Source: Branchiostoma floridae
Taxonomy: Eukaryota > Chordata > Leptocardii > Amphioxiformes > Branchiostomatidae
Length of the DNA stretch: 64,000 bases
Reading direction: 5' to 3'
Assembly: GCF_000003815.2 (NCBI RefSeq)
Contig: NC_049980.1
Coordinates: 15,929,576-15,993,575, forward strand
Shown here: positions 1,153 to 53,665 of the stretch, piece by piece
Layout of the letters: each line of letters begins with the position of its first letter
How positions within the stretch are numbered: position 1 is the stretch's first letter
Made by a program: the position numbers and the translations under genes
Notes under the pieces: model-generated
Told to the model about the DNA's origin: nothing
What the model saw: only the letters and a program-made list of their open reading frames with translations
Databases searched by the model: none

Positions 1153-3916
1153 ATGGTCTGCAAAGTCGTCGTCATCGTTTGGTATGTCTTGCTCCGTCTG
1201 GGTGACAACGCTGTAATATCTGATAACCTAACATGCCCGGCCAGCCCCGCACTGTGCCCGGAGCCACTGATAAAATGGAAGATGTGGGAGTTAGGGCTGG
1301 ACGCTAAAATCAGGGCCAGTGTGATATGCAGAAGGGCAGTTCGGTCGAAGAGAAGACTGTACTGTTCTTCACCGAGTGCACGAGTACTTCTTTCCCCGGA
1401 GGTGATGGACAAGGTTTTGGGACAACATCCATCTCAACAAGTAAGTCTTTCTTATAGCATTTGGTGTGATCGATCCAGTGAAATGGGAGTCGTGTGAGGA
1501 TTGAGTGAAAATATTTGAAACAAATTATGGTAATTATGCAATATGAAATATTAGGATGACAAAGTACCAAAAACATTTTGTCATCAATGATTGTAAAAAT
1601 TACGGATAGGTTGTAGAGACTGACCGTAAAAACTACTTATACAGACCAGGCCTGTCTTTTTTTTCTTATTATGCTGCTTAATCGAAAAAAAACCCTGAAC
1701 CATTGCAATTTGTATGATGACATGAAAATTTAGATACACATCGTAACCGGTTTATTGGCTATGTAAACCGTTAGATATCTACATCATAGCATCTAAATTA
1801 TTCTCTAGTCAGCTATATTTGAACCGCTGACTAAAAATTCCAGGTACAGCTCCTACACTTCGGCATCGGCAATATTGTGGATATAGCGGCGGGGAGTTTC
1901 ATGAACATGTCACGTCTGCACAGCCTGACAATCTCGTCTAACTGCCTCTATTGCATTAAAAAAGAGTGGTTTCAAATGCTGAAGAACTTGAAGCGTCTTG
2001 ATCTATCAAGGAACCAAATATCTATGATCCAACCTGCAGCATTCGAGGGATTGAAGCAACTCAAAAATCTATGCCTCTTGTTGAATAAGCTGCACACAGT
2101 GGATAGATCGTGGTGGCAGGGGATTCATGGGCTTGACATGCTGGAAATCAGTACGGACATCCTGACAACTTCAAATGAAACGGACAAGGCATCTCCTGCT
2201 TTCTCCGGTTTGGAAAAAATCCGAGTTTTGCAATTGAGCTATAGCGAGCTTCGGGTCATCAAAAAGCTGTACTTCGCGGGCTTGGGTACGCTGCAACATT
2301 TGTGGCTCAATGAAAACAGACTGGCCATGATAGAGCCTGGTGCCTTCACGGGCCTGAACATCAAGTACCTTTTCTTACAGGACAACGTTCTCTCGGCGGT
2401 CCGGTGTGGGTGGTTCTCGGGGATGCAGGGGCTGTTGGACATCGATTTGTCGGGAAACCGTATTTCTTTGATCAAGCCTTGCGCCTTCCATGGTGCCCCC
2501 AAACTTCGGAAGATCCAACTCGCGCGGAACCGCTTGTCCTTTGTGGCTTCAGTGTGGTTGGAGGGACTGCAGCAGCTGCAACTCATTGGGCTGAGTCACA
2601 ACAACATCATAGGCTTACAGGACATCAATGTACCCAAGGTAAGATTGGCCAACAACCCGCTTCGATGTAGCTGCACCACAAGCTGGTTGAGGGGAGAACT
2701 CGGCGAGACTCGGAAGATAGTTGACCTTAATCAGGTGACTTGTGACCATCCACCAGGCTTGCGTGGCATTGCTGTCGCGAATGTCTCCAATGGACAAGAC
2801 ATCTGTCCATCTCCAGTCGTTCTGCTAGACCCCATGTACACCATCACAGAAATGTCCACTGAAACATCGTCTGACGACAACGCTACCGAGCCAAGTAGCA
2901 TGGAGGTACTAGTATCTCTGTCTACTACGGGTAACAATTACAATGTTACCAACACAACTGGTATTGGTGCACCGTTGTATCTGTCTTCTATAGGTAACTA
3001 TCACAATGTTACAGAGCCAAGTGACACTGAGGTCCCAGTATCTCTGTCTACACCGGGTAACAATGACAATGTTACCGAGCCAGGTAGCATGGATACATCG
3101 TTCACTCCATCCACTATAGGTTACAACAATGCTACCAAGCCAACCGAGATGAACACCTCTACATCTCCGTCTGCTGTGGGTGACAATAACGCTACCGAAT
3201 CAACGGGAAAAGGCGTCCAGATAACTCTTGGCGTCACGACGGAAACGACGGAAGACGGCAAAGGACAGAGGACCACAATGGCCACACCCACCATTCTCGG
3301 TTCTGAAGGAGAAGATTTCAACATCACATGTATCGTGTACTGGGAACAGCATCCGAAGATCACATGGACCCTACCGAATGGAGCAAGGCTTGCATCTGAG
3401 GAAGGAACGGCAGATTATCCAAACGTGGCTGACAAGATACAGATGGCTGTAGATTACAAGATTAATAAGGAAGGATGGCCGTGTCACAAAATAAGTCATC
3501 GGAAGAGAGACTGCGTCAACATGTTTGGAAAATCCATAGTCCTACTTATGATTAAGGGAGCAAGACCCGGTCTATCCGGTCAGCACAGCTGCACTGCAGA
3601 AACAGAAAATGGAAAGGGCACTGCGGCTATATCTGTTAAGGTCCCCAAAGTGATCTCACCAACAAGGAAAGAGGGGGCAGAAACTCATCCATCTGCAACA
3701 GAAACGAGCTCAAAACCAGATACAGAGTTCCGCACAACAGAGAGCCGGGCAGAGTCGACCGATATCAGTATGGCACCACCGTCAGAAGCACTGATGCCAT
3801 CAGGACTAGTCAGTCCGTTAGTGATAGTCGTGCCGACTAGCGTGTGCTTTGGAGCGGCCTTGATGGTCATCTGTAGCATTATCGGAAGTAAAGTGTCTGC
3901 CAGAATCCGCCATTAA
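1153..3916 (+). CDS. LRR-Ig type I membrane receptor, two exons (1153-1440, 1844-3916), 786 aa
   Basis: Exon 1 ends at a GTAAGT donor and exon 2 begins after TTCCAG, both in phase 0, giving 786 residues. Residues 1-23 form a hydrophobic signal peptide, followed by a cysteine-bearing cap. About ten leucine-rich repeats span residues 100-365, with a C-terminal LRR cap near 366-418 whose NPLRCSC motif is clear. Residues 440-552 are a Ser/Thr-rich stalk of six 20-21-residue repeats, each with an N-glycosylation sequon (NVT or NAT). An Ig domain covers about 582-697, with Cys592, Trp604 and Cys679. A transmembrane helix lies near 753-776, followed by a roughly 10-residue tail. LRR-Ig proteins are greatly expanded in amphioxus and are proposed immune or adhesion receptors; this is family knowledge. 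The ligand is unknown. The tail carries no TIR domain or tyrosine motif, so signalling, if any, needs a partner. An upstream non-coding exon cannot be excluded. Confidence 0.85.
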
Positions 3917-11662: not shown

Positions 11663-13900
11663 TTAGTAGTAACCTCTGCCATAACTCTGGCCAGTCGTGA
11701 ACGCATCAGGAAGTGTGTCTGTCAAAAGAAAGTTACGTTAGAGAATACAAGCAATTAAACTCTCCCATTCAGTCATTCAGTGGTAGGAAAGAAAAACGAC
11801 AACTTCACAATCAGGGAATATGGCATGAAATGTGTCACAATACATTGTAAGTTGTACTCGTAATAGACGTTTGGAAGTAACATATGTACTACGATTTCAG
11901 ACAGCTCAATAGTGAAAACGGAAAAGCCGAAAATGCAAAATCTACCAAGAAAACGTACTGTGATATACAATTATGAGAGTCTGAATGACAAATGTAGACC
12001 TGCAACGACGAGGCTAACTAGAAAAGAATTAGCAGGTTTTCTGAATACCTCGCTGATCTTGTGGGCAATTTTGACATCATCGCTATAAACGTAGTGAAAG
12101 GGACGTACCGTTACACGTGTAGGTGAGGTCAGACCAAATGATTTGTTCCTGTGAAAAGCAGAAGACACCCAGTCGACCGCCTCTCATCGTTGTGTCAATG
12201 ATCGTTCCCGAGTCAGCCACCAAATTCTGTCCCTCGTACAGTCGAACCCTGATGACAATCATCAACAAGAGGTCATCAAATGTGTCACGCAAGTGTGTTT
12301 ACAATTTGTCCATGAACATTTTCCACATGATCATACAACCTACCGGAATGATGTTAAAGTCCCGGACAACTTTGGCGTCTACATACCTGATGTACCCAAC
12401 GCTGGGCCTGTGTTCAAGTTGCCACCGGTAAGACGCCTTGTCCTTCCATCCAACATTCCTGGGATCCTTCCACAGAAGTTTCACCTGCAGATCCACAGAA
12501 TTCCATTGATGTATCATTTTGCATATTTACAACGTTAAGTCAGCAATGAATAAAAAATCAGGGCTTGCAATCTTGCAGAATACTTAACAACCCTGTCACA
12601 CATGACGGATCATGTCCACTCAACCTTCTCCAGACCATGGTCGGCAGTCAGTCGACAGCAAGGTCATTTGTGGTTGGGGATTGGTCGGCATTCTCGGCTA
12701 CGTCAATTGAATATAAATTTTGATGAATCAAAGTCAGGAAAGTCCTATTCTGCTTGGAACCGGCAATATGAGCTTTGCGATGAAAGGAGACCTGAATCTA
12801 GAAAGGATGGATTCCAGGTCACTCCCTGTTCAACGCCGACCTTAGTTGGGGATGGTCTCCTAAATGTGAGACAGGGGCTTAAGGCACTCACCTGAGACTC
12901 TGTGTCTCCTGTGTTCCACAGCGCGTTTCGCAACATCTCCCCGGGACCGGTGTTGGACTTCACGGCCTGTTATGAAAAGTGAGCAGAGTAAAGTGGAGTA
13001 TAAAATGTTCCATGGAGCTCCCTCCACTTTCCACTAAAGGCTGTGACCGCTGGGCAAGCAAACATCTGACAGGTCACTCAGTAAATTTCATAGATAAAGA
13101 AAGTTTTACTTTTGAATGCTTTGTTGTTTTTTAGATCTTACTTTGACATCGTACATCATATTCAGATTAGAAAATCGATAGTTCAACGATCGCTGTTTTC
13201 AAGAAAGAGGGCCTTAATAGGAACACATTGTGAAGCTGTATAACAATTTGCTTACATGAGATCTGGTGCTTCATGAAGTTGATATGCATCGAAGTTGAGC
13301 GTGCTCTGAATATTTTGAATGAAGTTTTTGGAAGACACCAGTATAACATATAAGGATCTATATAGCAGAGACTTGACAACGTTTGTGACATGAACCTTAA
13401 GCTGCAGCCCGGGTTCCGCCACGGCTCGGAAAGGCGTGGCCTGCCAGTAGGTCTGCTCCTTCTGTTTCCACATGACGACATAGAAACTGCCACTGTCTTG
13501 GTACGAAAAGATGAAGCCTGCGTAGTCGTCATCAGTTTCTGTGTTGACGTAGAAGGTTCCACTGAAATCCACGCCGTTAAACCCTGTGAAGCCTGAAACA
13601 CAGACAAAAAAATGTAAGGTGGATGCTCAACACAAAAGTTGCTCAAGCAACTGGATAAGTATTGAAGACGGCACTATCCGCTGTCTTCTGTCATCAGATG
13701 TCCAACGTAGTAAGGCAGCTGCATCATTTACAATTCCTTTAAACTCACTACAAGAAGTGTATAATTATCTATACAACGGGACCTAAATGATAACGTTATG
13801 GTATACCTTTAGGCATATGGTAATAGTTTGTGATATGGTGAAGCTACTCACCGACGGCGAGACCTGGGTCACTGTTCATTGTCTGCACGATTTCACGTCC
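11663..13900 (-). CDS. Thrombospondin C-terminal L-lectin domain exons
   Basis: Six exons encode residues 787-990. Diagnostic strings are [91 protein letters not shown] and [11 protein letters not shown], all hallmarks of the thrombospondin C-terminal domain, which packs on the calcium-loaded type 3 wire and binds cell-surface partners. The last exon adds a short tail ending in Gly-Tyr-Tyr. The 13396-13592 exon uses a GTTCAT donor. The interval 13901-15195 contains no residues needed for the domain, because 15196 joins 13900 in phase. Confidence 0.93.
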
Positions 13901-16900
13901 CTGGTAGGCAAGACAATGGCAAATAACATACAGTTGTGAGCACCCAACAATGACAACAGCAGAAAGTAACAACATACGCAAGTACAGATTCTGATACATG
14001 TATGAAAACCAAAGCCAATGGCGTCATCGACCACCTTGTAGGTGTGGATAGATAAGGCGAATGAGACAGTTGATGTTCAAATATGAAGTTGGCGTCTCCA
14101 AGCAGCTGCTGTTGAATGCTTTGCAGTGCTGTACACATCGGGGAACAGCTGCGTTAATCGAGAAGTGTAGACCTCTGTTAACATACAGCAGGCAAGCCTG
14201 TGTCCTCAACATCTCAGTATCACTGCCGACCCTCTGTACCGTGAGTGCCGTCTGGCTGTCGTTCCACGTCACTGTGCTTAATGTAGCATCTTTTGTTCAG
14301 CAGATAACACAGCCAGTGGCTCCTCCTTTGGCATATCTCAAGTCATGACGAGAAATATTTGAGAGCGAATACCAGGAAATGACGTATTGACCCCCGAACT
14401 TAACATAGCAACTTTTTCCAGAGAGAAGATGATGAGAATGACAAAGCCCAGCTCACTCTTGATCGGCCTCCGTATTTCCTCCCAACGACCAACCAATGAC
14501 TGCTGTCACTGTTTGGTTGATGTTAGTGACAGCGCTGTTGTGAGCTTTCAGCCGTTAGATTAACTTATTGCACGTGTGATTGCATAGGTGTTTTTTGTGT
14601 TGACTTTAAAGGCAATGAGAGCGTCATATTGCATGGGGTTGTACAAAAAAAACGCTGTTACCTCTCTGGAGATGACAGTTGTCCGCTCCTCTCACAGCAT
14701 TTACATAGCCACCCTCTGCGTCGTTTTTCTTTGAAACTTACCGCCTAAATTTACACATGAGTCTAGCAGTACATTCGACCTTTTCAAACTCTGAAAATTT
14801 GGGTGTGAATTTTTTTAAATTTCACTGTTAGCCAGGAAAAGTCTACAACTAAAGGCCTCTGGTTGTATTTGATTTTAACTGTCTCCGTCATGATGGCACT
14901 TATTGCAACGTCGTGTGTCTTACGGCGTTAGCAGTCAACCCCATGATTGTCTCTAAACGAACTTGAATGTCTGATGATTCACAATCATGCGGTCCCCCAA
15001 CGTCATACAAACCTGTAACCATAGAGCAATCTATAACACCAACAGTGATCACATGTCTGATAGTTCTTTTTTGGGGGTGCAATTTACATATTGCCATAGA
15101 CGGCACATAAAAATTAGGGACGGTATTCAATGCAGCAGTTATAGTACTATAATACGAGCAAAAGCAAGCCATGTTACAGTAAGACGCAGACTAACCTCGT
15201 TCAGAACAACCCAGTTGGGGTCTATCTGGGCTTCTCCTTCGGGATCAAGGACAACTGTCTGGAAGGCGCGGAAGTCTGTCTTCTGAATGGCCGCGTTTTC
15301 TGGACAGACGTCAATCCAATTCACCACGTTATCGTTATCGAAATCGTCTTCGCAGGCATCGCCGACCAAGTTGCCTGTAAAGAGAGACTCACGTATTAAC
15401 TAGTGAACCAACTGAACACAACATGACGTTTTACCTCGTTAAGAATGACCCAGTTGGGGTCGATCTGAGCCTCTCCCTCCGGGTCCAGCACTACTGTCTG
15501 GAACTCTCGGAAATCAGTCCGCTGGATGTTGGCGTTCTCAGGACATACGTCTATCCAGTCCACCTGGTCATCGTCATCATAGTCATCCTCGCAGATGTCA
15601 CCTCTTCCATTCCCTAGAAAGCAGCCGGCACAAGTCGCCTACCAACTACACTGGTAAAAGTTATTTAAACTAACTGGTACCTTCCATGCGATGCCTCACT
15701 GTTTGATTACACGACCATTTCACCAGAGGCCATGGGTGAGGAGCGACCACTGAGTGACCGCTGAGCGACAAGAAATTTGACAAATCAAGCTCTTGAAGTC
15801 AGAAACACTTGCATATATGTAAACTCCCTAAAACCTACCGTTGGTGTCGAGCTGTGTCGGGTTCACCACCAGGCGGCAGTTGTCGTTGGTGTCAGTAACG
15901 CCGTCGTTGTCGTCGTCATCGTCACACTGGTCGCCTGGAAAAAAAACACAGCTTGTGTTAAACCAGAGCGGACAAGTACTCAACCAAACCACATTGTTGG
16001 TCAAATTGTTGACATGATACCAGACTTTTGACAAGTTTGCTCTGTGCAAGGCCAGAGGCACCGAGCTACGTACTCAACAGTCGACAAGTTAGTAACAATA
16101 ATATACTAACTTGAATTCAGTGCCACAATGTCCACAACTGCCTCAAAGCAAGTAAGAAAGTTCAGCACGTAGCAAGACCCAAAGGCCACTTCAATGCTAC
16201 ATGAGTAGGCGACAACAGCAGGTTGACACCGCGAGCGTATCAGTTGCTTATCGACATCGCACTGAATCCGTACTTAAGCGATCTAAAAGCTTAGGGGTCT
16301 TCTTATTACCATCGTCTTATAAGCTTACCTATGCCGTCGACATCTGTATCTAGTTGGTCACTGTTGGGAACTGTTGGACAGTTGTCTGAACTGTCCTGGT
16401 AGCCATCACCGTCCCTAGTAGGTGCAAACAAAATTCATAGTCCACATCCAAAGTAACGGCAATACATCCTAAACAAAGCACTGGTTCATTTTTAGATGCG
16501 CTTTCTGTGCATTCCACTACATGCAAGAGGGGCTTTAAAGAATCTTTAAATTACTTGCATTATTTTGAATAAGTCAATATCCAAGTCACAATAGTTCAAA
16601 ATTTAAAAAAAATATCAAAATTGAATAAATTCATATGTCGTTGGAAACATTTTAAAAGTGACTGTAGAGAAATCTGTTTGCTCATAATCATTTTCGAACA
16701 TATATGTGATCAGCCGTCCAGAGTGCTACCGTTTTAGGTTCATAGGCTCTTAAAATTAGCTGGTGCGCCTTATAAAAAAAATCATTGGAGCACAGTGCTC
16801 TTATCAATACTTGTTCGTGCCTAAACCATGGACTGCACAGATCAACAGTCAACTGTATACGATATTTTAACGATTTGATACTTTAAGAATGACCTCAGCT

Positions 16901-19900
16901 TTTAGATGCATTCTATCCAAGAGGTAATCTTCCATTCGTCTTGCAAGAAGGAAGGCATGTTAAGTAATTTTGTACTTTTTGCCTTTAAATTTACATCAAC
17001 ATCAAATTTACTAATTTCGTATGTTGCAAGTTGAATTAACGGTCATTTCAACTGTTAACCTTTTCAAAAATACATTTTTAACATTTGACAACAGTCATGT
17101 CTGACTATGGGTTCAGGTACACGGTTTAGGTCTGCGGAATAAAGTAGTAACTGTTGTGAATGTTGTGAATTGCTGGTACGCCCAATTTTGGGGGTTGGGA
17201 GCACAGTGCTTCTAGGTTGAAAATTCCACTTTTTTGAGTAGCAAGTTGCAGCTTACTGGTCTTCATTCGTATCACACGTGTCTCCTACCAAGTCGTCGTC
17301 ACTGTCATTCTGTGAAGAGACGAGAAAAGAATTTTATTGGACATAAAATGTGTAGGCTTAGGGTTGTTGATTAAGGTTCTGGGTTCCAATCCTTGACAGT
17401 GCCCAAAGTTGTACCATTTGGAAAGTCATTACACTCACTTACTCACTTAACTCAGGCGTACATCAGTACCTTCATGTAGCTTCGGTTAGAGACGTCCTCT
17501 GGAATTTGACGTAAAGCTGAATGACTCGTGTTTGAGAAAAGACACTTATCCAAAAGAGTTGGGGCCGATCCCGACTTCACTAGATCAAACATAAGACTCT
17601 GTTCTTCGGATCGACATCTTGAAAAGGTGATGATAGTCACCTGTTATGTCAATCAGTCCCAAAATGAGATACATGTCCATAAGATAAGCCAACAACTCGC
17701 CTGTGTTGGGTTACTGTTGTCCGGACAGCTATCACACTCGTCACCGACCCCGTCCCCATCCCGGTCCACCTGCCTCTGGTTCGGGATCTTTGGACAGTTG
17801 TCCAACAGGTTGGGAATACCTCAAGAGAAATGAGACATGAAAGCTCAAGCCAATGTCACACGAAGTCGATCATGACCTATTGTCCACACCTAACCACTGC
17901 CGAATGTTTTTAACGTTTTAATTTGAAACGTTCGAATGATACAGCTGACCAGTAGCAAACCTCTCATTGCCCAACATAGCCTCCCAGTCGACTCCCAACC
18001 ATGGTCTGCAAACTGTTGGGGAATGGGGATGGTTCGGAGGCGATGGTCGGTTATGTGTTACAGGGGGTTTAGCTCTGTCTCTGTATTCCATGAACGGCAT
18101 ACTTTCATAATTTCTAGGTCTTTACATCAAGTAGAAAAGTCGATCTCTGATTTGCTGTGAGCAAACGTCTTTTCTGTCCAAGAAACTACAATTCATCTAG
18201 CCGAAGTAACAGTCATCATTCTGGTGCATGAAATATCGACTTACTATCGCCATCAATGTCGTTATCGCAAGCGTCGCCCACGCCATTCCTGTCTGTGTCC
18301 AGCTGGCTGGGGTTAGGGACATTGGGACAGTTATCACAGGCGTCTCCATCTGAGTCCGTGTCCGAGTTCTGCTGCCCAGTATTCGGCTTCAACGGACAGT
18401 TGTCCTGTGAATTTGGAAAATACTGGGTATCAGTTGACTGTATGCGGCTAGAACGACTTGTCTCTGAGACTTCGAATTCTTATTTCAGAAGACGAACCTC
18501 ACATTTACATTTCTTTGACAACCCTTATAATTAACAACACATACCATTTGAGCAAGGTATATTTACCGAATATGTTCATCAATTAGTGCTCACCCATGAT
18601 AATTCGTGGATTGCAGAAGAATTTGTGAAGGCTCTCTATGGACCCGATCACATTCGGTTGTCTTACGTTCCCAAATCAAAAGTATTCTTAGGATAATCGT
18701 GTGTGTGCAGTGCAAATTTAGCCACCTTGTAACAAAAAATGCTGTCTTAGATTCTTATATTGCTGTCACAAACTACTTGAACGTCCCACGACTGCAAAAT
18801 AATAGGACGAATTTGGCCGTATCAATGCACACAACAAAGCCCAATTTCGAGGTACATCTGTCGTGCTGTTTATGGTAAGTCGGGCTGACCTCCATGTTGG
18901 GCACGCCGTCACCATCGGCATCATCGTCACACGCGTCTCCGATCCTGTCTCCATCAGCGTCCTCCTGGCCAGAGTTCGGCACCAGAACACAGTTATCCTG
19001 ACCAACAGAGAACAGACATTGGAGTTGTTACAGAGTTCGGCACCAGAACACAGTTATCCTGACCAACAGAGAACAGACATTAGAGTTGTTAAAGAGTTCG
19101 GCATCAGAACACAGTTATCCTGACCAACAGAGAACAGACATTAGAGTTGTTACAGAGTTCGGCATCAGAACACAGTTATCCTGACCAACAGAGAACAGAC
19201 ATTAGAGTTGTTACAGAGTTCGGCATCAGAACACAGTTATCCTGACCAACAGAGAACAGACATTAGAGTTCGGTACCAGAACTATTTTATTCTGACCAAC
19301 AGAGAACATCTACATTAGAGTTGTTACAGAGTTCGGCATCAGAACACAGTTCTCCTGGCCAACAGAGAGCAGACATTACAGTTGTTACAGAGTTCGGCAC
19401 CAGAACACAGTTATCCTGACCAACAGAGAACAAACATTGGAGTTGTTACAGAGTTCGGCATCAGAACACAGTTATCCTGACCAAACAGAGAACAGGCATT
19501 AGAATTGTTTTAGAGTTTCTTGTTCTATAAGGCGATTTGCATCCATTTCCAACGAAATTGCACGGTTTTGAAAGGAAAAATGATATGAAGGAGGTTTCCT
19601 TCCAGCATAAGGTAAAGTGGGTACATTTAGGGTGTATACATAGAACCTTTAGAACCTTACGTTAAAGTACTTACCGGTCGGCACTTAGGATCAGAACATG
19701 GGAGAGCTTCATCTGGATAGCCGTCAATATCAGTGTCCGGGCCGCACAGGAAGCCGTTTCCGCCCCAGCCCACTTTGCACTTTGATACAATAAATGGAGA
19801 AGGGTAAGTGTTGTTCTCATTTGCCAAATATACTAGTAGTCTGTATGGGCTCTTACAATTGATTCGAAGCGATATCTATGTAGGAACTAGCTAGGTAACC

Positions 19901-22900
19901 TTTTCGTTATTGTCACACGGCACATCAACGCGACTCGCACGGCTTGCAGGAGAGGGGATAAAATGTCAACATTTGGACCAAGAGCCATCGAAGCAACCTT
20001 GCAGACCCAGGCCGTGCGCTGAAGAGTCAATGGCGTATTTTCCAATATGTCACAGAGCATGTTAGAACATGTATGTAATATGTGTAGTCAAACCTATACA
20101 ACAGACCACCTCTACATAAAGACCACTGGCCGCTTGTTGGTGGTTTCTTAGGAATTTTCCCCACTGACACCAACATTACGAATCCTGTCCTTTATGAGTA
20201 TCTGTCCACAAAGACCAGATTTTTGCGCTCAGAAGTTCCCTGAGTGGTATTGATTGCATACAATCCTAGGTTATCAAAGTGAAGTTTCAATCAGTAGTTT
20301 TCTAACCTCACACTTGTATTGTCCCGGCTTGGTGACCTTGCAGTTGGCGTTCTCGTCGCACGGGTTCGTACCTCCGTCCGAGCACCGCCTGCCCGGCCGG
20401 CACCCGACCGTCTGGTTCCCCACGTACCCCGTCAAGCACGGCCCGCACCGGAACGAACCCTGGCGGCAAAACATAACATGTAGGAATGATCATGAAAATT
20501 GGACAGGTTTGTATCAGTAACACGTCCTTTGCGCTAGAGGTTTTGAACGATGAGCGATTAATCACATTTTTACATCATGCACCATATCTAAATCATAGAA
20601 CCAAGGGTCACACAAATCCAAGTGTCACCCCGGCAGCACAAATGACCAGTACAAAGAGAAATGGCCAGCAAAAGTGTATTATGAGTAACAACAAAAACAA
20701 GACAAACAAAAAACGAAAAGGGCCTAGAGAGCCTGCTATGGAGACTAGGTCATCCATGCGGCATAACATGAAAGTAATCAGCTTCTATATGCAGCTACAT
20801 GATAATACATGACAAATTCTATAATCATGGCAATCTACATTGAATTTCTTACGGCACTCTTAGAAATCTTTGCAGATATTTGTCGTGTAGTCTAGAGTGA
20901 CTTCACTAGAGCATATTCAGAGGCAATAACGTTTTGTCGACTAGTTTAAACCAAGTTGTATTTTACCCACCATAGTGTTCGTGCAGACAGAGTTAGGCAC
21001 ACAGCCACCGTTGTTGCCGTCGTTACATTCGTTGAGGTCCCGACACACCTGAAATAGATGGGTTCATTAGAGTTTCTAGAAACAACAGCATAGTTTAAGA
21101 TTTATATATTCACAAATGAACATTCAATAGAAATGCAATAACCGTTGCTCGGTAAAGCGGTTATCACACTGGGCTGCGCCTGATGGTGAAAAATTATTGC
21201 GGTATCTTTGCGATTTTTTCGCCAATTTTCCCCTGCGGTCACACCTACTTGCGACACACGGGTAAAATACGTGACAACGTAAGATCCCTACTAACAGCAA
21301 AAGAAACTGAACAAGAATATCTAGAAAGAAACTCTACAAGTAGAAAGAACGGTTTCAGAAAGATGCAAAAAGAATCTCTACATAGAGAAAGGATATTTTC
21401 ACAAAGATCTGTAAAGAACCTTGACGTGTAAAATGAAGATCTGGAAAGAACCACTACACGTACCTGTCTGTTCCTGAGTGCGAACTCCACACCCACCCCC
21501 TCTACCTTGTTCCCTGTGTACCCCCTAGGACAAGCCCTACAGCGGAACCCTGGGGACAGGTTCTGGCACGTTGTCAGCACGGAACAGGGTGTAGCAAGAC
21601 GACACTGGAACAGGTGGCATGGTTATCATTCTGTCGTAATATTTATGGCAAGTATAAATGACTGCAACTAATCTCATACATCAGTGCTTAGATGTTTACC
21701 TAACTAGCATAATTAGATGTTTAGAATAAGATCATTCTCCTACGCAGAGCTTTGCCCGTTGCAAGATACCTTGGGGAGGCTCTGCTCAACCTAAGATTGT
21801 GGGTGTAGCCTGTAACTAGCTGTCAACCAAACAATAACCAAAAACCAGACAATGACCTAAATGTTTCCTTCAGGTAAGGCAATTCTCTAACTGGGTGAAA
21901 GCTAGTTACCGGCGAACCCACAAAAGTAAAAAGAAAACTCCGTCTGGTTTGTATAGACCATATTCGAGGCTATGTGCATGAAGATGGATAAAAGACAGAC
22001 ATCAAAGAAACAGTCCTCACTTCGTCCACATCCGCACAGTGTGTACCGTTGCCTTGGTAACCCCCGGGACAGTCCCCACACTCGAACCCGGTGGGCGTGT
22101 CTGTACAGGAGACTCCCGCCCAGCACGGGTCGTCATTGCACGTCCGACGGGGCTGGGGAACCCCACCTGGGATATTCATAAATACAATACAATACAATAC
22201 AATACAGTACAGTACAAGACACGGCAACTATCATACATAAAAACGACTACCCATGAGCATTTGTATTCATGACTATGATGATAATATTAATAGTTCAAAA
22301 TAAACCTTCATGAAATATTCATGAGAAAATCAAAGCCGCTAACTTAAAAGGCAAGAAAACAACATAAGCCGTAAAAAGCTCTTATGAAATCCGTTGAGCC
22401 ATCTATCAATTTTTTGTTCGCCCGTCCATCGCTCGTCCGTCGCTCGGTGGTCCCAGCCTTTATTGAAATGGATGTGATAATAAAACAGATGATAAAAAAC
22501 AGATGATAATTAACCAGACCGTTACCTCCGCAGGCGTCACAGTTCTCCATAACAGTCCTCAACCCTGCCGTCTCACGGGCCTGCACATCAAGAGAAACAG
22601 TGCAATTAGATAGTTAGTCCTTTCCGCACCAGATGGTATATAGGGCGGCGCCCATCTGCTTGCCAATAGCCCTTGGACCTCACCTTTGTGCAATCACTTC
22701 AACAAGCGGCTAGTCCACTGGAAGACGCGTGCATACTAAACTACCATGATCTTTCCCAAATGCAGAGAACGTTATATGTACCATCTTCTCACTTCACCAT
22801 TTCACCCGTAGAGTAGTGCAGTACTTTTACGTTTGTGTCTGGTATCAACCCTAGCCTAGCCATAGATAATGGGGCGAGGAGGTTGTTTTCCAGGATGCAT

Positions 22901-25900
22901 GGGGTAGAGTATGACGTCAATGAAACTGCAGTTTGCTGAATGACAACGGGAGGCGCTCGTGACTAGTCTACTAGATAATCCTGTCATGCCGTCTAGCTTT
23001 GAACAGGGTGGGTGGGTGTCAAGAAACGTGTTTCCTCGTCCAGTCTTTTAAGTAGAGCTAGAAGGATGAGTTGAAGGGGCAACCCAGTTGTCTTGAGATT
23101 TGGAGAAAAAAAAGATAAGACGTACCTGTGTTCTGACGTCTCTCTGGAGTTGTCTGACAGCCTGTGTCAGCTCTCTCATGGTGGTCACAAACAAATTCAT
23201 CTCACTAGCTCCTGAAAACAAATATTTCTTACGTTGAATTAGCTCTGTTATCCCCATAACATTAGGCAAAAATCAGACTGTTTCGACACTATTAGCATGT
23301 GTTGTTGTTGTTGTTGTCGATGTTCGTATAACATCCCAATAACAATTGCATTGGCACGAAACGAATCGAAAACTAGTATACATTAAAATATCTGCTCTAT
23401 ATACACCATAGTATATATATAATATACACCATAGTAACTTTGCACATCGAACACAATATAGATCTATGCCTTCACTAAAAACAAAGTACTCACCAAACGA
23501 GCCAGGAACTGGAAGAGAATAAATAGAGAATAGATATTAAAGAAAATTTAAGTGCAAATCATGACTACGATTTGTCGCAAGCGTGTTTACAAAAGCATTC
23601 ACGCAACAAGTAATGTGTACTATTAACCAGAGTCTATAAACCACATGCCTTTTACTAGTATAATGGAACAGAATGTCCCTAGCTATCATTGCATACAACT
23701 TTCAAGCGCCCCCTACCGACATTGCCAATCACATCTCTCTGTGCCGTAGAGCCCCTTCCCTCGTGGTGGTCCCCCTGCATCAGGCAGTCCTGGAACTGGA
23801 GCACGGACAGCAGGTCTGTGTTGAACATCAGCCGCAGGTTCTGCAAGCTACCCTGTCAGGAGCAGATACATCGCAAAGTTCTGTCAAACACGTAAAAGTC
23901 GCAGATAACCATTGATAACCATCTCACACAGTTGGCTTCATAACATGTACTACACTGAAATTGAGTGAATGCCAATGTCCTTTGTACAAATTGTAACTGA
24001 TAACCAGTAGACGTTTTAGTGACCGTCTGTCATCTTCCTTAGAACTAAATGCTTCTACTTCGCACTACAGCTCGTTGCTGCAGTTTGAAGAATGTGGTCC
24101 CAACTATACAAATGACTTTGTTAACGTTATACAGGGATTCGCAAACTTGTTGAAAGTATTCACAGATGTACATTGCCTGTCACAGTTGTACCAGGAGAAA
24201 TACTGAGTTCTAAATTCAAAAAAGATAACAGGCTTTTCATTTGACGTCATCTGCGTCATGTTTACAGCATACGTCTGTAAACCACGTAAACCACGCGAAG
24301 ATGCTACTGCTTAATTAAATTACCTGCCAACATGGTCGTCGGAGGATTCAAATTATGAATAGTATGACGTCAATGAAAAGCCTCAATATCGTGTACATTT
24401 CTGCACATTTCACCGCTGACTTGAGAAGTGTAAGGAAATACGCTGCACAATCAGCAGGGCAAGCTGTACCACGAAAACAAAATCATGTTTCTGTGAAGTA
24501 CACGGAATCTCTATTCGACTAATTGTTGCCTAAGGGTAGAGAGTCCAGAGACCATCGTGTTTGAGTCAGTAGGTTTCAATGTAATGACGTGTTCTGGTCC
24601 TTGTGTCCTCGGGACCACCGGGTAAGAAACGACATCCAATATGCCCGAGCTAACAAAACAACAGGTGGCAATGATTTGGGGAAGTGTGCTTTATGAAAAC
24701 ATGACACGTTTGAGCATTGGCCTTGGCATTGCTCGTTTCATCCCATGACTTTTGTCACACTTGTTTTCAGTTTGGGCATGAAGTCGTGGGAATGCGACGC
24801 AAGCAAAGCGAAGATACATGTCAAGTGAAATGGCTATTATGTAACAACAGCGTGGCAGCTGTGTATTATGGATAATTGCTCTTGTCACTTCTGTGAAGCG
24901 GGACAGGTGCATGGTTGATAGATTAAACGTGGCAACACTGTCTGTCAGTTTCGAATGTTTCATCATAAATCATTTCTTGTCCTCATTGTTAAAGAACACT
25001 TCACCGGAGTTAACCTGTGGCATCCTTAAAAAAAAGGACAAATTGAACAGATAAGCACAGACATGTCTTCTCACCAACCTTAAACTTGAGCTGCCCTTTC
25101 CCAGGTCCCCTCTGCGCCACTCTCAGCTCAGCCACCGTCTCCAAGTAGTCAGCGCCCAGGGACTCCAGCACAGGGGCGCTCGTCCTCACCTGTACAGGGG
25201 TAACACCATTACTCATACAGAGATAGGCACAACTAGACTGGGTACCATCCTATTTCTACATAGGGGCTACACACTCGCTACCATAATTTTTATAAAGTAG
25301 CGAGTGTGAGGAGACCAGGTAGAAAAAGGATGGTACCCAGGCTAAGGCACAACAGGTGTCAGTGGAACATGACAATACGCATGACTCCACCGTTTACATG
25401 GTCTATAGATGGTCTACCCACAGCGATATTAAATTCACCCAGGTCTAAGCAATATCAAATTTACGGAGTACTTTCCTACACGAAGGTGCAATAATGGGCT
25501 GGCTAGCTACCCGTATTAAATGTTAGTGGGTTTTGGTACACCAATCATTTTAAATGCAGGTGTGGAAATTGATTCAATCTACCCTTCTGTCAAATTTCAG
25601 GAATGACGAAGATAAATCGAAAAAGAAGATTTTACAGAAGGAGGAGAAGAAACATCGGGAAAGATATATTTGTATTGTTGAAATATAAAAACTTGAATCC
25701 ATTTGAAGATTTGACAGGAGAAGGAGAAGAAAAGGAAGAAGCTTTAGAAAACGACAAAAAGCAATGTACATATAAAAAGGAAAATTTCCCGTACAATGTA
25801 AATACTGTACGTTACATGATATAGTGTCTTGTCTTGTCTGTCACAAACTGTGGAAGACAGCTCTTCGGTGAGCCAAACTTGATTGACATCACCTCCACAT

Positions 25901-40517: not shown

Positions 40518-43500
40518 TCATTGTGCTCCCTTGAATTGGGAATATAGTAACCCTGTTGCTGATATTGCATCACCCAAGCCAACAGTCCTGATTGGATTCT
40601 TACATACTAACACTGGACTAAATGCAAATTCTACCTTTTCCCTCATCCAGCTTGTGACAGGATGATAAGGATCATACTTGACTACTCTCCTCCTCAGTGG
40701 AGGGTGTTGCACAGATAGTGGGAATGCCAGTGGAATCTTTAAGTCGGTATCTGCAGGTGTGATGATGTCATCCACTCCACAAGCCTGCTGGGGCGCCACC
40801 ATGCATCCTGCTGCAGTGGCTGATGGGAGGTTCCCCCATAGGTTGGGGAGGGCAGCGGTGACGTGGAATGTCAGCGAATGGAAGTGGATCCGGGAGAAGC
40901 GGGAAGTGGGGTTCTCTTCTGAATTGCCATAAGTGTCGAGAAGCCAGAAGAGGATATCGTTTACTGCTGGGATTTCCGGCTGGCCCCCTTCCAGAACTTC
41001 TGCATGGAGTGGCCCATCCACAGACTTGCACAGGAAGGTCAGCTCTTGTTCATTGAGTCCAATGGAATGAACCACAGGGAAAACCTGCAATCAGGGTACA
41101 AACCATTCTTCAATACACAACTAGTGGTGATCAATTATAGGTAGATAATTGACTATTGATAGGGCAAAGGATGAAGCTTAGAAAGAATTAAGGAATTGAA
41201 GACACAAGAAAGTCTTGAAAACAGATATTCCAATCCTTGCAATTTTCTGCACCTACAATCCTTTGGTAGGTGTATTTGCAAAATTGAGATTAATGCAACC
41301 TGAGTGTCACCCTAGTTAATTGGTTATGGGAGACTATAAAAGACCCGATAAACTCACTAGAGTGACACTCAGGCCAAGATGAAAAAAAGTTTGAGATTGA
41401 CATGTTTTGAACTTTTGAAGAAAGAACATGCTTAATCCTATAACAATCTCTATCCCCACAGAGAACCCACCCACCTCAGCTGCAACTTTTTTCAGGAACG
41501 CCATGTCGACCATGCTGGCCAGCTCCAGGTGGACAGCGATGCCTGCAGGAATGTTCCTCAGCATGTGGACGATCCTCTCCAGCCGTGTCTGTCTGAAACT
41601 CTCCTTCTCCTTCTCTAACAGGTGCAGCCCGGACAGGACCACCAAGTCTGGGCGGAACTGCTCAAGCTGTCCGAAGAACGCCTCCAGCGGTTCCATCCTC
41701 GCGTTGGAGATGTCGTTGGAAAAGATGAAGCGGGTGGCGACGGCGGCCTCCACGTCCCCCCAGGTCTCCCCGCGCCCAAACTCCAGGATGAGGTGAACTT
41801 CGTCCTGTGCCCTGATGCAGTCCCTCGGGACCTGAATGTCGGAGCTCAGCAGCTTCATGGCCTGTGGACCCATTGGTCCACCTAACAATACCTGAGGATA
41901 GTAGAAATATGGAGGATGTGTAGACGATTTACAGGAACGTCCCAAGAAGACCAGTCAGGGTACCAATAATATCTTGTCTATATGGATAGGTGTTTATCAT
42001 GCACAGAATTCTTAATACTTGTATCAATGGGAAAAACTATCAAAGGGACCACCAAAAAGTGGTTACATTGGCCAGGTGGTCTTAATGTAGAGGTGAGGTG
42101 GTCACTTGTACAGGTTAGACTGTGTATCAAGTGTTTATCTTCATGCAAAGTGATAGGATATGCTGAACTCTTGAATCTTAACCCAAACCCGGATATATCC
42201 GGCACACCTATACATGCCCTGTGTGCCGCTCCCGGTTATATACGGGATAGCATATTCCTGTAAAGTAGCAGCTTTGCACGCATGTAGCGTACGAACCCTG
42301 GAAGTTCTGGACTAAGGCTTGTTCTGGGGTTTCTTTTTGGAGGTCAGCGGCCAACCCTGGCGCTGATAGCATTTTATAGGGCTGAAACTCTGGCAGTTTA
42401 AGGGTTAAAGAAAACAGCAATATGACTGAACAAGCTCCTTTCAGCTCAATGTTGAGCTAACACTGCCTTTTTGAATACTATTGGCAACTTTAAAATCAGA
42501 ATAAAAACTTTTTTATGAAACTGTGAGTAAAATTCTAAAAGATAAGGTTGATGTATATCTACCTGAACACCCATGGCTGTCATTCTCTCACCCATCAGTG
42601 CTGCATTACCACCAATGAAGAACTAATGGTGATAAAAAGGACACTTTTGTCATCTGAAAAAAGATACTGTTGTCATCTGTACAGACCAAAGCTTTCAAAA
42701 AAGGTATCAAGAATAAAAATTTTTCGTTCAACCTAACAAGCTAAATGACATTCAACTACAATTGTACAAGCTCACTGACAATGTAGTCTACCAAAAGCAT
42801 ATTTTGATGAATTCAAGGCGGTCCTTGATTAAAAAAAACCTGAGCACATTGTAGAAGACATCTAACAGATCAAAGAAGTACTGCAATTGTAAATTCTGAA
42901 GGACAGTTGACTGTAAACCGCAAGTAGGTTATCGGGGACGAAGTTCCAGTGGGATCTGCTGGAAAAGATCTGAATGCGTAAATTTCTTGCAATGGCAGGC
43001 TGTCACAATTTGCCCCTATGATCTGCTTGGAGATTAGTTGACTGCAAAATACATATTAGGCCACAGCAAGTAAATTTTATGGATTACATCAGCGCGCGCA
43101 TTAATTTTCGCCTGATTTCAGAAAAAAAAAAACATGAATTTTTTTCTTCTGCAGGGATGGTCAACATAATGATAAAGTACCAAAATGAGACAATATGTTG
43201 TGTTGTAGCCTAATAGTTGTACTTGTAGAAGTGACACTTGCAAGGTACCCGAGACTGTAGTTATAGAAACGAAACTTATTGGATAGTTGTGACACAAATA
43301 TTGAAGCTATGAGTGTGGTTACGAACTTTGTTGGTGATGTCAGTCTACCACACTAATGCCACTTTTACCACACCAGTACATGTCTTGAATACAGGAATGA
43401 ATGCCTTGTTGGCTCTGATACCATGTTTTGTCCCTTTAGTTTTTTTACAACAGTCATCACAACGTTACGGTGCCTATTTTTGAAGATGTAGCCATCTTGT

Positions 43501-53062: not shown

Positions 53063-53665
53063 CTAACATTCCATTGGCCTACGTCCACGGCGGTTGTTTC
53101 GCATCTTCTCGAAGCGGGCCTCCATCTCCTCCAGGACTTTAGGAGTGTAGCGGACGACCAGCTTGACGGTGCCGGTGGCGGCCTTTAACAGCTCGACGGC
53201 CTTTTCGTGATTCTCCCCCTCCACACTGACGCCGTTCACGGACAGGAGCTGATCGCCTCTCTTCAGCCCCCCGTGCCTGTCTGCCACACCGCTGGGGATG
53301 ACTCGGGAGATGTAGATCGGGGAATTTTGCTCCTTTCCACCCATAACATTGAAGCCCAGCCCTTCCTCCGTCTTCGGCAGCTCCACAACACGGGGGTGTG
53401 CGTGGCCCTCGCTGGCAGCGAAGGCGGCAACTGTCGCTTTCGCGGTCGCGTTGGCTCGTATCTCTGGACTGCCGGTCAGGTCCACCGTTTCGTAGACATG
53501 CTCGTAGACCTCCCTGATTGCGTTGCAGAAATCGGACTGGAGAACCTTCTGCAGAGCCTGTAGCTTCTGAGGAGGGACTTCTCCTGTCTTCTGCAGGTTA
53601 TCCAGCAGCTCAATGGCCCGCCTTACATCTCTCTCCAGAGTCAACGCTTCACCTGTAGACGCCAT
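53063..53665 (-). CDS. LIN7: LIN7 polarity scaffold, intronless, 200 aa
   Basis: A single uninterrupted frame encodes the whole LIN7 protein. An L27 domain spans about residues 10-65 ([36 protein letters not shown]). A PDZ domain spans about 93-175, with GLGF at 102-105, [18 protein letters not shown] and [19 protein letters not shown]7 binds CASK/LIN2 and PALS-type proteins through L27 and receptors through PDZ, working in basolateral sorting and synaptic complexes. Length matches vertebrate LIN7 (about 200 aa). The start lies in ATGGCGTC, a common YY1-like context. Vertebrate LIN7 genes are multi-exon, so the lack of introns suggests retroposition or intron loss. No frame damage is present, arguing for a working gene. 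Confidence 0.95.

Follow-up and report, generated by a model that had tools for sequence, protein, structure and literature searches.

The closest described relatives of the locus reported here come from two fields: tandem mutually exclusive exons, and the integrin-related tripeptides of thrombospondins (TSPs). In a survey of human mutually exclusive exons, lengths not divisible by three were seen in 60% of clusters and donor-to-branch distances below 50 nt in 9%, both being devices that enforce exclusion (PMC5740500). Exons IIIb and IIIc of FGFR have been reported in amphioxus, and the part of that work available to us discusses them as Esrp-regulated (PMC5703972). On the thrombospondin side, excerpts of PMC6526912 describe the RGD of the last type 3 repeat as conserved in subgroup-A TSPs of chordates and relate the tripeptide VGD to β1-integrin binding in certain disintegrins. 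The RGD of TSP-1 binds an integrin and becomes more exposed upon calcium removal or disulfide reduction, according to the section of PMC8044760 used here. In vertebrate TSP-3, mutation of EGD to RGD reverses the block that this protein imposes on integrin trafficking, which, as far as the consulted portion of PMC6325143 goes, indicates that such a tripeptide change can matter.

Our analysis concerns the window, i.e., the 64-kb stretch C2:15929576-15993575 of an amphioxus assembly of 513 Mb in 431 contigs, and within it a thrombospondin gene on the reverse strand (Table 1). A first-pass annotation had described two tandem 179-nt exons of this gene as mutually exclusive, and re-reading the sequence confirmed their coordinates, lengths, phases and motifs. 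Each exon is preceded by AG and followed by GT, is entered in phase 1, where it completes a codon whose first base is the final one of the exon ending at 15839, and ends in phase 0 on a codon boundary. Exon a reads GNGRGDIC and exon b GNLVGDAC; the identity of 48/60 residues counted by the annotation holds in the alignment (129/179 identical at the nucleotide level), and tblastn with exon a as query within the window retrieves exon b at E = 9.5e-30. Both are internal exons, adjacent to each other and with further exons on either side in the gene model. The pair shows the similar length, same phases, compatible splice sites, homology without a stop codon and internal neighbouring position that mark mutually exclusive exons.

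Table 1. Features of the thrombospondin gene, in positions of the window; splice-site percentiles refer to 130 TSP-family sites.
Feature	Position	Strand	Remarks
Coiled-coil oligomerisation segment, two open frames	22347..23272	-	PF11598; exon ends approximate
EGF-type exons	19675..22166	-	Pfam EGF_CA, EGF_3
Type 3 repeat exons	18890-18997, 18245-18404, 17701-17819, 17257-17309, 16329-16414	-	Pfam TSP_3
Upstream exon (type 3 repeat)	15839..15934	-	ends after first base of Gly codon, phase 1; donor ACG/GTAGGT, 57th percentile of 130 donors
Exon a	15435..15613	-	179 nt; RGD codons 15597-15605; acceptor 22nd, donor 68th percentile
Intron between twins	15375..15434	-	60 nt, GT-AG; yTnAy matches: branch A at base 31, 39 or 57
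Exon b	15196..15374	-	179 nt; VGD codons 15358-15366; acceptor 54th, donor 44th percentile
Intron 3′ of exon b	13901..15195	-	1295 nt
Downstream exon (TSP_C region)	13852..13900	-	gene model
C-terminal exons	13396-13592, 12892-12966, 12387-12484, 12109-12248	-	Pfam TSP_C; model stops at 12109, short of coding end

The reading frame behaves as the annotation had claimed. Exon a alone or exon b alone lets the frame run on into the exon at 13900. When both are joined, a TGA appears as the 18th codon past the junction, early in exon b, and when both are skipped, a TGA appears at the second codon past the joined Gly. Since duplicating in tandem an exon whose two phases differ disrupts the frame, only one copy is usable at a time; transcripts with both twins or with neither are frame-shifted, so that productive mRNA would carry exactly one of them.

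The gene itself, judged by the sequence of its product, is a COMP/TSP-4-type (subgroup B) thrombospondin. The spliced model keeps one frame from the EGF repeats, across type 3 repeats with seven xGDxC motifs, into the C-terminal domain, and Pfam recognizes TSP_3 (E = 5.7e-58) and TSP_C (E = 9.5e-100) in the model protein. EGF_CA and EGF_3 were also matched in the scanned protein, outside which the first EGF-type exon lies. Two upstream pieces, joined by hand, match the COMP coiled coil (PF11598) at E = 5.3e-10. An N-terminal laminin-G-like domain is a feature of the TSP-3/4 type; here, one N-terminal piece scores 21.9 bits for Laminin_G_2, below the cut-off of 22.9, and another piece gives no match. 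No Pfam match to VWC or TSP1 repeats was found ahead of the EGF domains in the pieces scanned from the 5′ half, which is only partly modelled. Among solved relatives, COMP ranks first for both isoforms, before TSP-2 and TSP-1, and a tree of the 60 residues places a, b and COMP together (85/85) and TSP-1, TSP-2 and a gene on C1 together (83/80). It is the combination of the COMP coiled coil, COMP as best solved relative and the tree that assigns the gene to subgroup B, and the encoded thrombospondin is probably pentameric.

Two peculiarities of the type 3 repeat region were noted in passing. The exon at 17701-17819 is followed by GCGAGT, i.e., a GC-AG donor in the gene model. Before the exon at 18890-18997 lies a minisatellite (window 18970-19517; 61-bp unit, 9.1 copies) the unit of which copies that exon's acceptor together with its opening bases, so that a series of decoy 3′ splice sites precedes the true one. 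As 61 is not a multiple of 3, use of the nearest decoy would shift the frame.

Among the places listed by a protein search of the assembly, the tandem arrangement is peculiar to this gene. Of the 16 places, two are the twins, 11 are single exons of other genes and three are weaker matches, and among these 16 no neighbouring second copy of the exon occurs elsewhere. Twelve paralogue loci were modelled with a small spliced aligner, giving 11 multi-exon models (the remaining locus, L039, is one exon with no intron). The exon is single, with phase 1 before and 0 after, in 10 of the 11; L028, a subgroup-A-like gene, has it fused with the exon that follows, and this only copy carries RGD at the same column. 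At the position before GD in the last repeat, seven of the 11 paralogues have V, three have I and one (L028) has R. Ten more thrombospondin-like genes, in addition to the window gene and L028, were modelled (L029-L038, on C1, C4, C10, C19 and C180), eight of one kind, with GAEI... after the exon, and two distant ones on C10 at 14.56 and 14.65 Mb. Searches of the window and the assembly, the 1295-nt intron included, found no third copy of the twin exon, and the window search found no twins of 14 other exon pieces of the gene; its other matches reflect the usual resemblance of type 3 or EGF repeats to one another, apart from one short minisatellite match.

How the two copies diverged is informative as to their age. 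Their 60 codons comprise 21 identical ones, 27 with silent differences and 12 with replacements, and 32 of the 50 nucleotide differences fall at third positions (32/60 third positions against 18/120 first and second positions; Fisher p = 1.5e-7, exon a versus b). Fourfold sites are saturated, 14 of the 18 comparable ones being different, while dN is about 0.14. Even the lower 95% limit of the fourfold difference, 0.52, means, under Jukes-Cantor, that the copies are about 0.9 substitutions apart per silent site, which would make about 0.45 on each twin if they shared the change equally. A dN/dS ratio is not given, as NG86 returned no dS and the maximum-likelihood dS of 4.7 was set aside. Neither exon has acquired a stop codon or an indel, the four ordinary splice sites are kept (22nd-68th percentile of 130 TSP-family sites), and both Cys and the GD are retained in each. 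Taken together, saturated silent sites, a conserved protein and kept splice sites point to twins that are old and maintained, and both copies look constrained.

These same data bear on whether one twin is merely an unused or decaying duplicate. The acceptor of exon a is on the weak side (22nd percentile), as one could expect of such a copy, but silent saturation alongside a conserved protein, intact splice sites, no stop or indel, and the retention of both Cys and GD in both exons are hard to reconcile with decay. In simulations of an unconstrained copy (3000 runs), 48/60 residues or more were retained in 59% of runs at 0.1 substitutions per site, in 0.7% at 0.2 and in none at 0.3 or more; at 0.3, a clean frame with GT and AG survived in 10% of runs, and these simulations contained no indels, which favours a decaying copy looking intact. 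We consider decay very improbable.

Amphioxus is highly polymorphic, and the pair could in principle be an assembly artefact or an uncollapsed haplotype. A trace of likeness, at most, persists in the introns beside the twins: 11 of 28 bases agree before the two AG and 12 of 28 after the two GT, values equalled by 70 and 43 of 1000 shuffles, respectively. Against an artefact, the twins differ by 28% at the nucleotide level with saturated silent sites, and the assembly matches the whole region at a single place. When 861 bases from here were used as a DNA query, the search returned the region itself and two short partial matches, on C1 (70% over 175 bases, a paralogous exon) and on C4 (77% over 75 bases), and thus no second haplotype copy in the assembly. 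An origin of this kind deserves next to no weight.

Residues N2, E9, W20, Q31 and E60 are common to both twins and absent from COMP, TSP1, TSP2 and the C1 gene, although N2, E9 and E60 recur in some other amphioxus paralogues. In the 60-column tree, a and b group with support 79/80, and the alternatives joining b or a to COMP have p-AU values of 0.247 and 0.077, respectively. The tree is compatible with exon duplication either before or after the split from vertebrates and does not settle the order.

Other parts of the window also hold genes. A complete LIN7-like protein (L27 and PDZ domains) is encoded in one uninterrupted frame at 53063-53665 (-), and among the assembly protein matches listed it has no other close copy, partial ones reaching at most 49% identity. 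This gene may be a retrogene that replaced the original, as has been reported for amphioxus SYCP1 in the accessible part of PMC5803294. An ADP-dependent glucokinase-like gene lies at 40518-41945 (-; Pfam ADP_PFK_GK), and a single-frame protein of 679 residues at 1877-3916 (+) looks, by eye, like a membrane protein with leucine-rich repeats and Ig-type domains.

Mutually exclusive splicing of the twins is well supported by the sequence. The annotation's reading stands on length, phase, homology, splice sites, frame logic and long-term constraint, all of them read from genomic DNA. In a Drosophila X-chromosome survey, a neighbour of the same length and frame and with homologous sequence accompanies only 0.56% (90/16180) of the exons outside mutually exclusive sets, according to the portion of PMC3228551 on which we rely, and this rarity makes for a high prior. 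We hypothesize that exclusivity would be achieved mainly via the frame-shift, which would by itself be enough to remove double inclusion: a transcript with both twins would stop inside exon b and be degraded or yield a truncated protein.

The short intron between the twins may contribute. The 60 nt between the twins compare with a minimum of 82 nt and a median of 305.5 nt in 120 paralogue introns. These 120 derive from 121 introns in 11 of the 12 loci, of which a 35-nt one in a misaligned stretch (L036) was dropped; an 86-nt (L031) and a 112-nt intron (L034), as well as a few others in the poorly aligned C-terminal loop, were kept though possibly wrong, and the 82-nt minimum is flanked by well-aligned exons. 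The annotation had taken 60 nt to be close to or below what a spliceosome can use: within this one gene family it is indeed the shortest intron met, but unspliceability does not follow from length. Some other animals regularly have introns of about this length, and this one might be spliced normally in amphioxus. Steric hindrance is nonetheless plausible, as the branch points that look usable are only about 31-39 nt away from the 5′ splice site. The distances refer to branch points predicted by yTnAy pattern match only (A at base 31, 39 or 57) and compare with a steric criterion of less than 50 nt from donor to branch.

Two further enforcing devices were considered. The donors are GTAGGT, GTAAAA and GTTAGT, all paired with AG acceptors; none is of the U12 kind by the usual consensus, which speaks against a U2/U12 mixed-class mechanism. 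A search for competing RNA structures between introns found no convincing excess over shuffles, pairing as strong arising in 63/100, 2/100, 4/50 and 29/50 shuffles of the four intron pairs, with the 1295-nt intron covered at its first and last 400 bases.

The stop codon created by double inclusion also admits a different use, in which the transcript with both exons is made on purpose and destroyed to lower output, in the manner of a poison exon. The TGA lies early in exon b and upstream of several junctions of the model, as such a switch would have it. Two constrained coding versions, however, are not needed for that role, and the 60-nt intron would make the joining of a to b harder, not easier. 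An expression switch is quite improbable in our judgement. For the locus as a whole, we are considerably confident that the best explanation is a pair of tandem mutually exclusive exons in a subgroup-B thrombospondin; that exon choice would set the last calcium loop and the xGD of the last type 3 repeat is a weaker part of this reading.

What the exchange may do is a separate and weaker matter. The annotation had placed the RGD of exon a where thrombospondin-1 has its own, and it does fall exactly on that column: it aligns gap-free with the RGD of TSP-1 and TSP-2, and the VGD of exon b with the VGD of COMP. The type 3 exons from 16329 to 18997 carry IGD, DGD, VGD, VGD, VGD and IGD (the last completed by the exon at 15934) and no RGD; more broadly, no other RGD occurs from the second EGF-type exon to the exon at 12109-12248, the N-terminal part being only partly modelled. 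The annotation went on to contrast an integrin-binding with a non-binding isoform, and this is not supported as stated. COMP also has VGD at this column, and VGD is itself related to β1-integrin binding in the disintegrins mentioned in the excerpts of PMC6526912. Nor does an RGD amount to binding, as the calcium- and disulfide-dependent exposure of the TSP-1 motif illustrates (PMC8044760, in the section used). Choosing exon a or b would set the last calcium loop together with the RGD or VGD of the last type 3 repeat, and the swap would then alter integrin preference and/or calcium-dependent exposure rather than turn binding plainly on or off. From the sequence, the swap appears to be an exchange of the whole RGD-plus-calcium-loop unit, for which altered integrin preference or exposure is the likeliest consequence, though we hold this integrin part only tentatively, at somewhat less than even.

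A competing view of similar standing, to which we likewise give a little under an even chance, accepts the exon choice and differs in the functional half only: the target would be the calcium loop or protein stability, and the RGD of exon a would be incidental. The twins differ at positions 14, 16 and 19, which are Asp in a and Asn in b and lie in the last calcium loop, near the RGD. N19 is peculiar to b among the six sequences compared (D in a, COMP, TSP1, TSP2 and the C1 paralogue), and the summed charge of the 60 residues is -15 in a and -12 in b. Moreover, R is found at just 3 of 62 paralogue xGDxC sites, and its presence in exon a could have arisen by drift at a tripeptide of which only G and D are conserved. 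Against an incidental RGD stand its exact coincidence with the TSP-1/TSP-2 column, its being the only RGD in the assembled part of the protein, and the changed integrin handling when RGD replaces EGD in vertebrate TSP-3 (the consulted portion of PMC6325143).

Two lines of reasoning about the RGD were abandoned. Replacements between the twins seem to cluster near it (8 in the first 24 residues, 4 in the last 36), but b versus COMP shows the same tilt (9 and 6), and we no longer read the clustering as evidence of selection. That exon a obtained its RGD by exchange with the subgroup-A-like gene was rejected, since over its length this exon resembles b and COMP more closely (48/60 residues identical with b, 42/60 with COMP, 38/60 with TSP2 and 38/60 with the C1 gene).

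Thrombospondins link cells to matrix via integrins and calcium-sensitive repeats. If both isoforms are made, they would constitute matched natural proteins that differ in the integrin tripeptide and the adjoining calcium loop within the same 60-residue frame, and they would offer a clean test of the function of the RGD in the last type 3 repeat. The fullest reading, a regulated splice switch that exchanges the RGD-plus-calcium-loop unit of a pentameric matrix protein and is perhaps as old as early cephalochordates or the chordate ancestor, goes further than the tandem exons themselves, and we regard it as rather doubtful. Among the open-access papers listed in our searches, we found no description of mutually exclusive thrombospondin exons, which is not proof of absence in print.

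Compared with TSP-1 and TSP-2, whose RGD in the last type 3 repeat aligns with that of exon a, the gene studied here belongs to subgroup B and offers the motif in one of two exchangeable exons. In TSP-1/2 the RGD is constitutive. COMP (TSP-5) shares 45/60 residues and the VGD with exon b, and differs from the window gene in having an RGD in an earlier repeat, where the latter has none. We know of no duplicate of this exon in COMP. The twins resemble tandem mutually exclusive exons in general, as characterized in the portion of PMC3228551 on which we rely, in length, phases, splice-site compatibility and homology. FGFR of amphioxus and vertebrates likewise uses mutually exclusive exons (IIIb/IIIc) to exchange a binding segment within an extracellular domain, in the available part of PMC5703972; FGFR is a receptor, whereas the thrombospondin of the twins is a matrix protein. 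Finally, vertebrate TSP-3 (EGD) and TSP-4/5 (RGD/KGD) illustrate, in the consulted portion of PMC6325143, that integrin trafficking is influenced by which residue precedes GD in a type 3 repeat, although there the variants reside in separate genes and in the third type 3 repeat (of TSP-4), and here in one gene and in the last repeat. If the fullest reading is true, exon choice within a single amphioxus gene would loosely parallel the vertebrate use of separate subgroup-B paralogues, the RGD-bearing TSP-4 and the EGD-bearing TSP-3.
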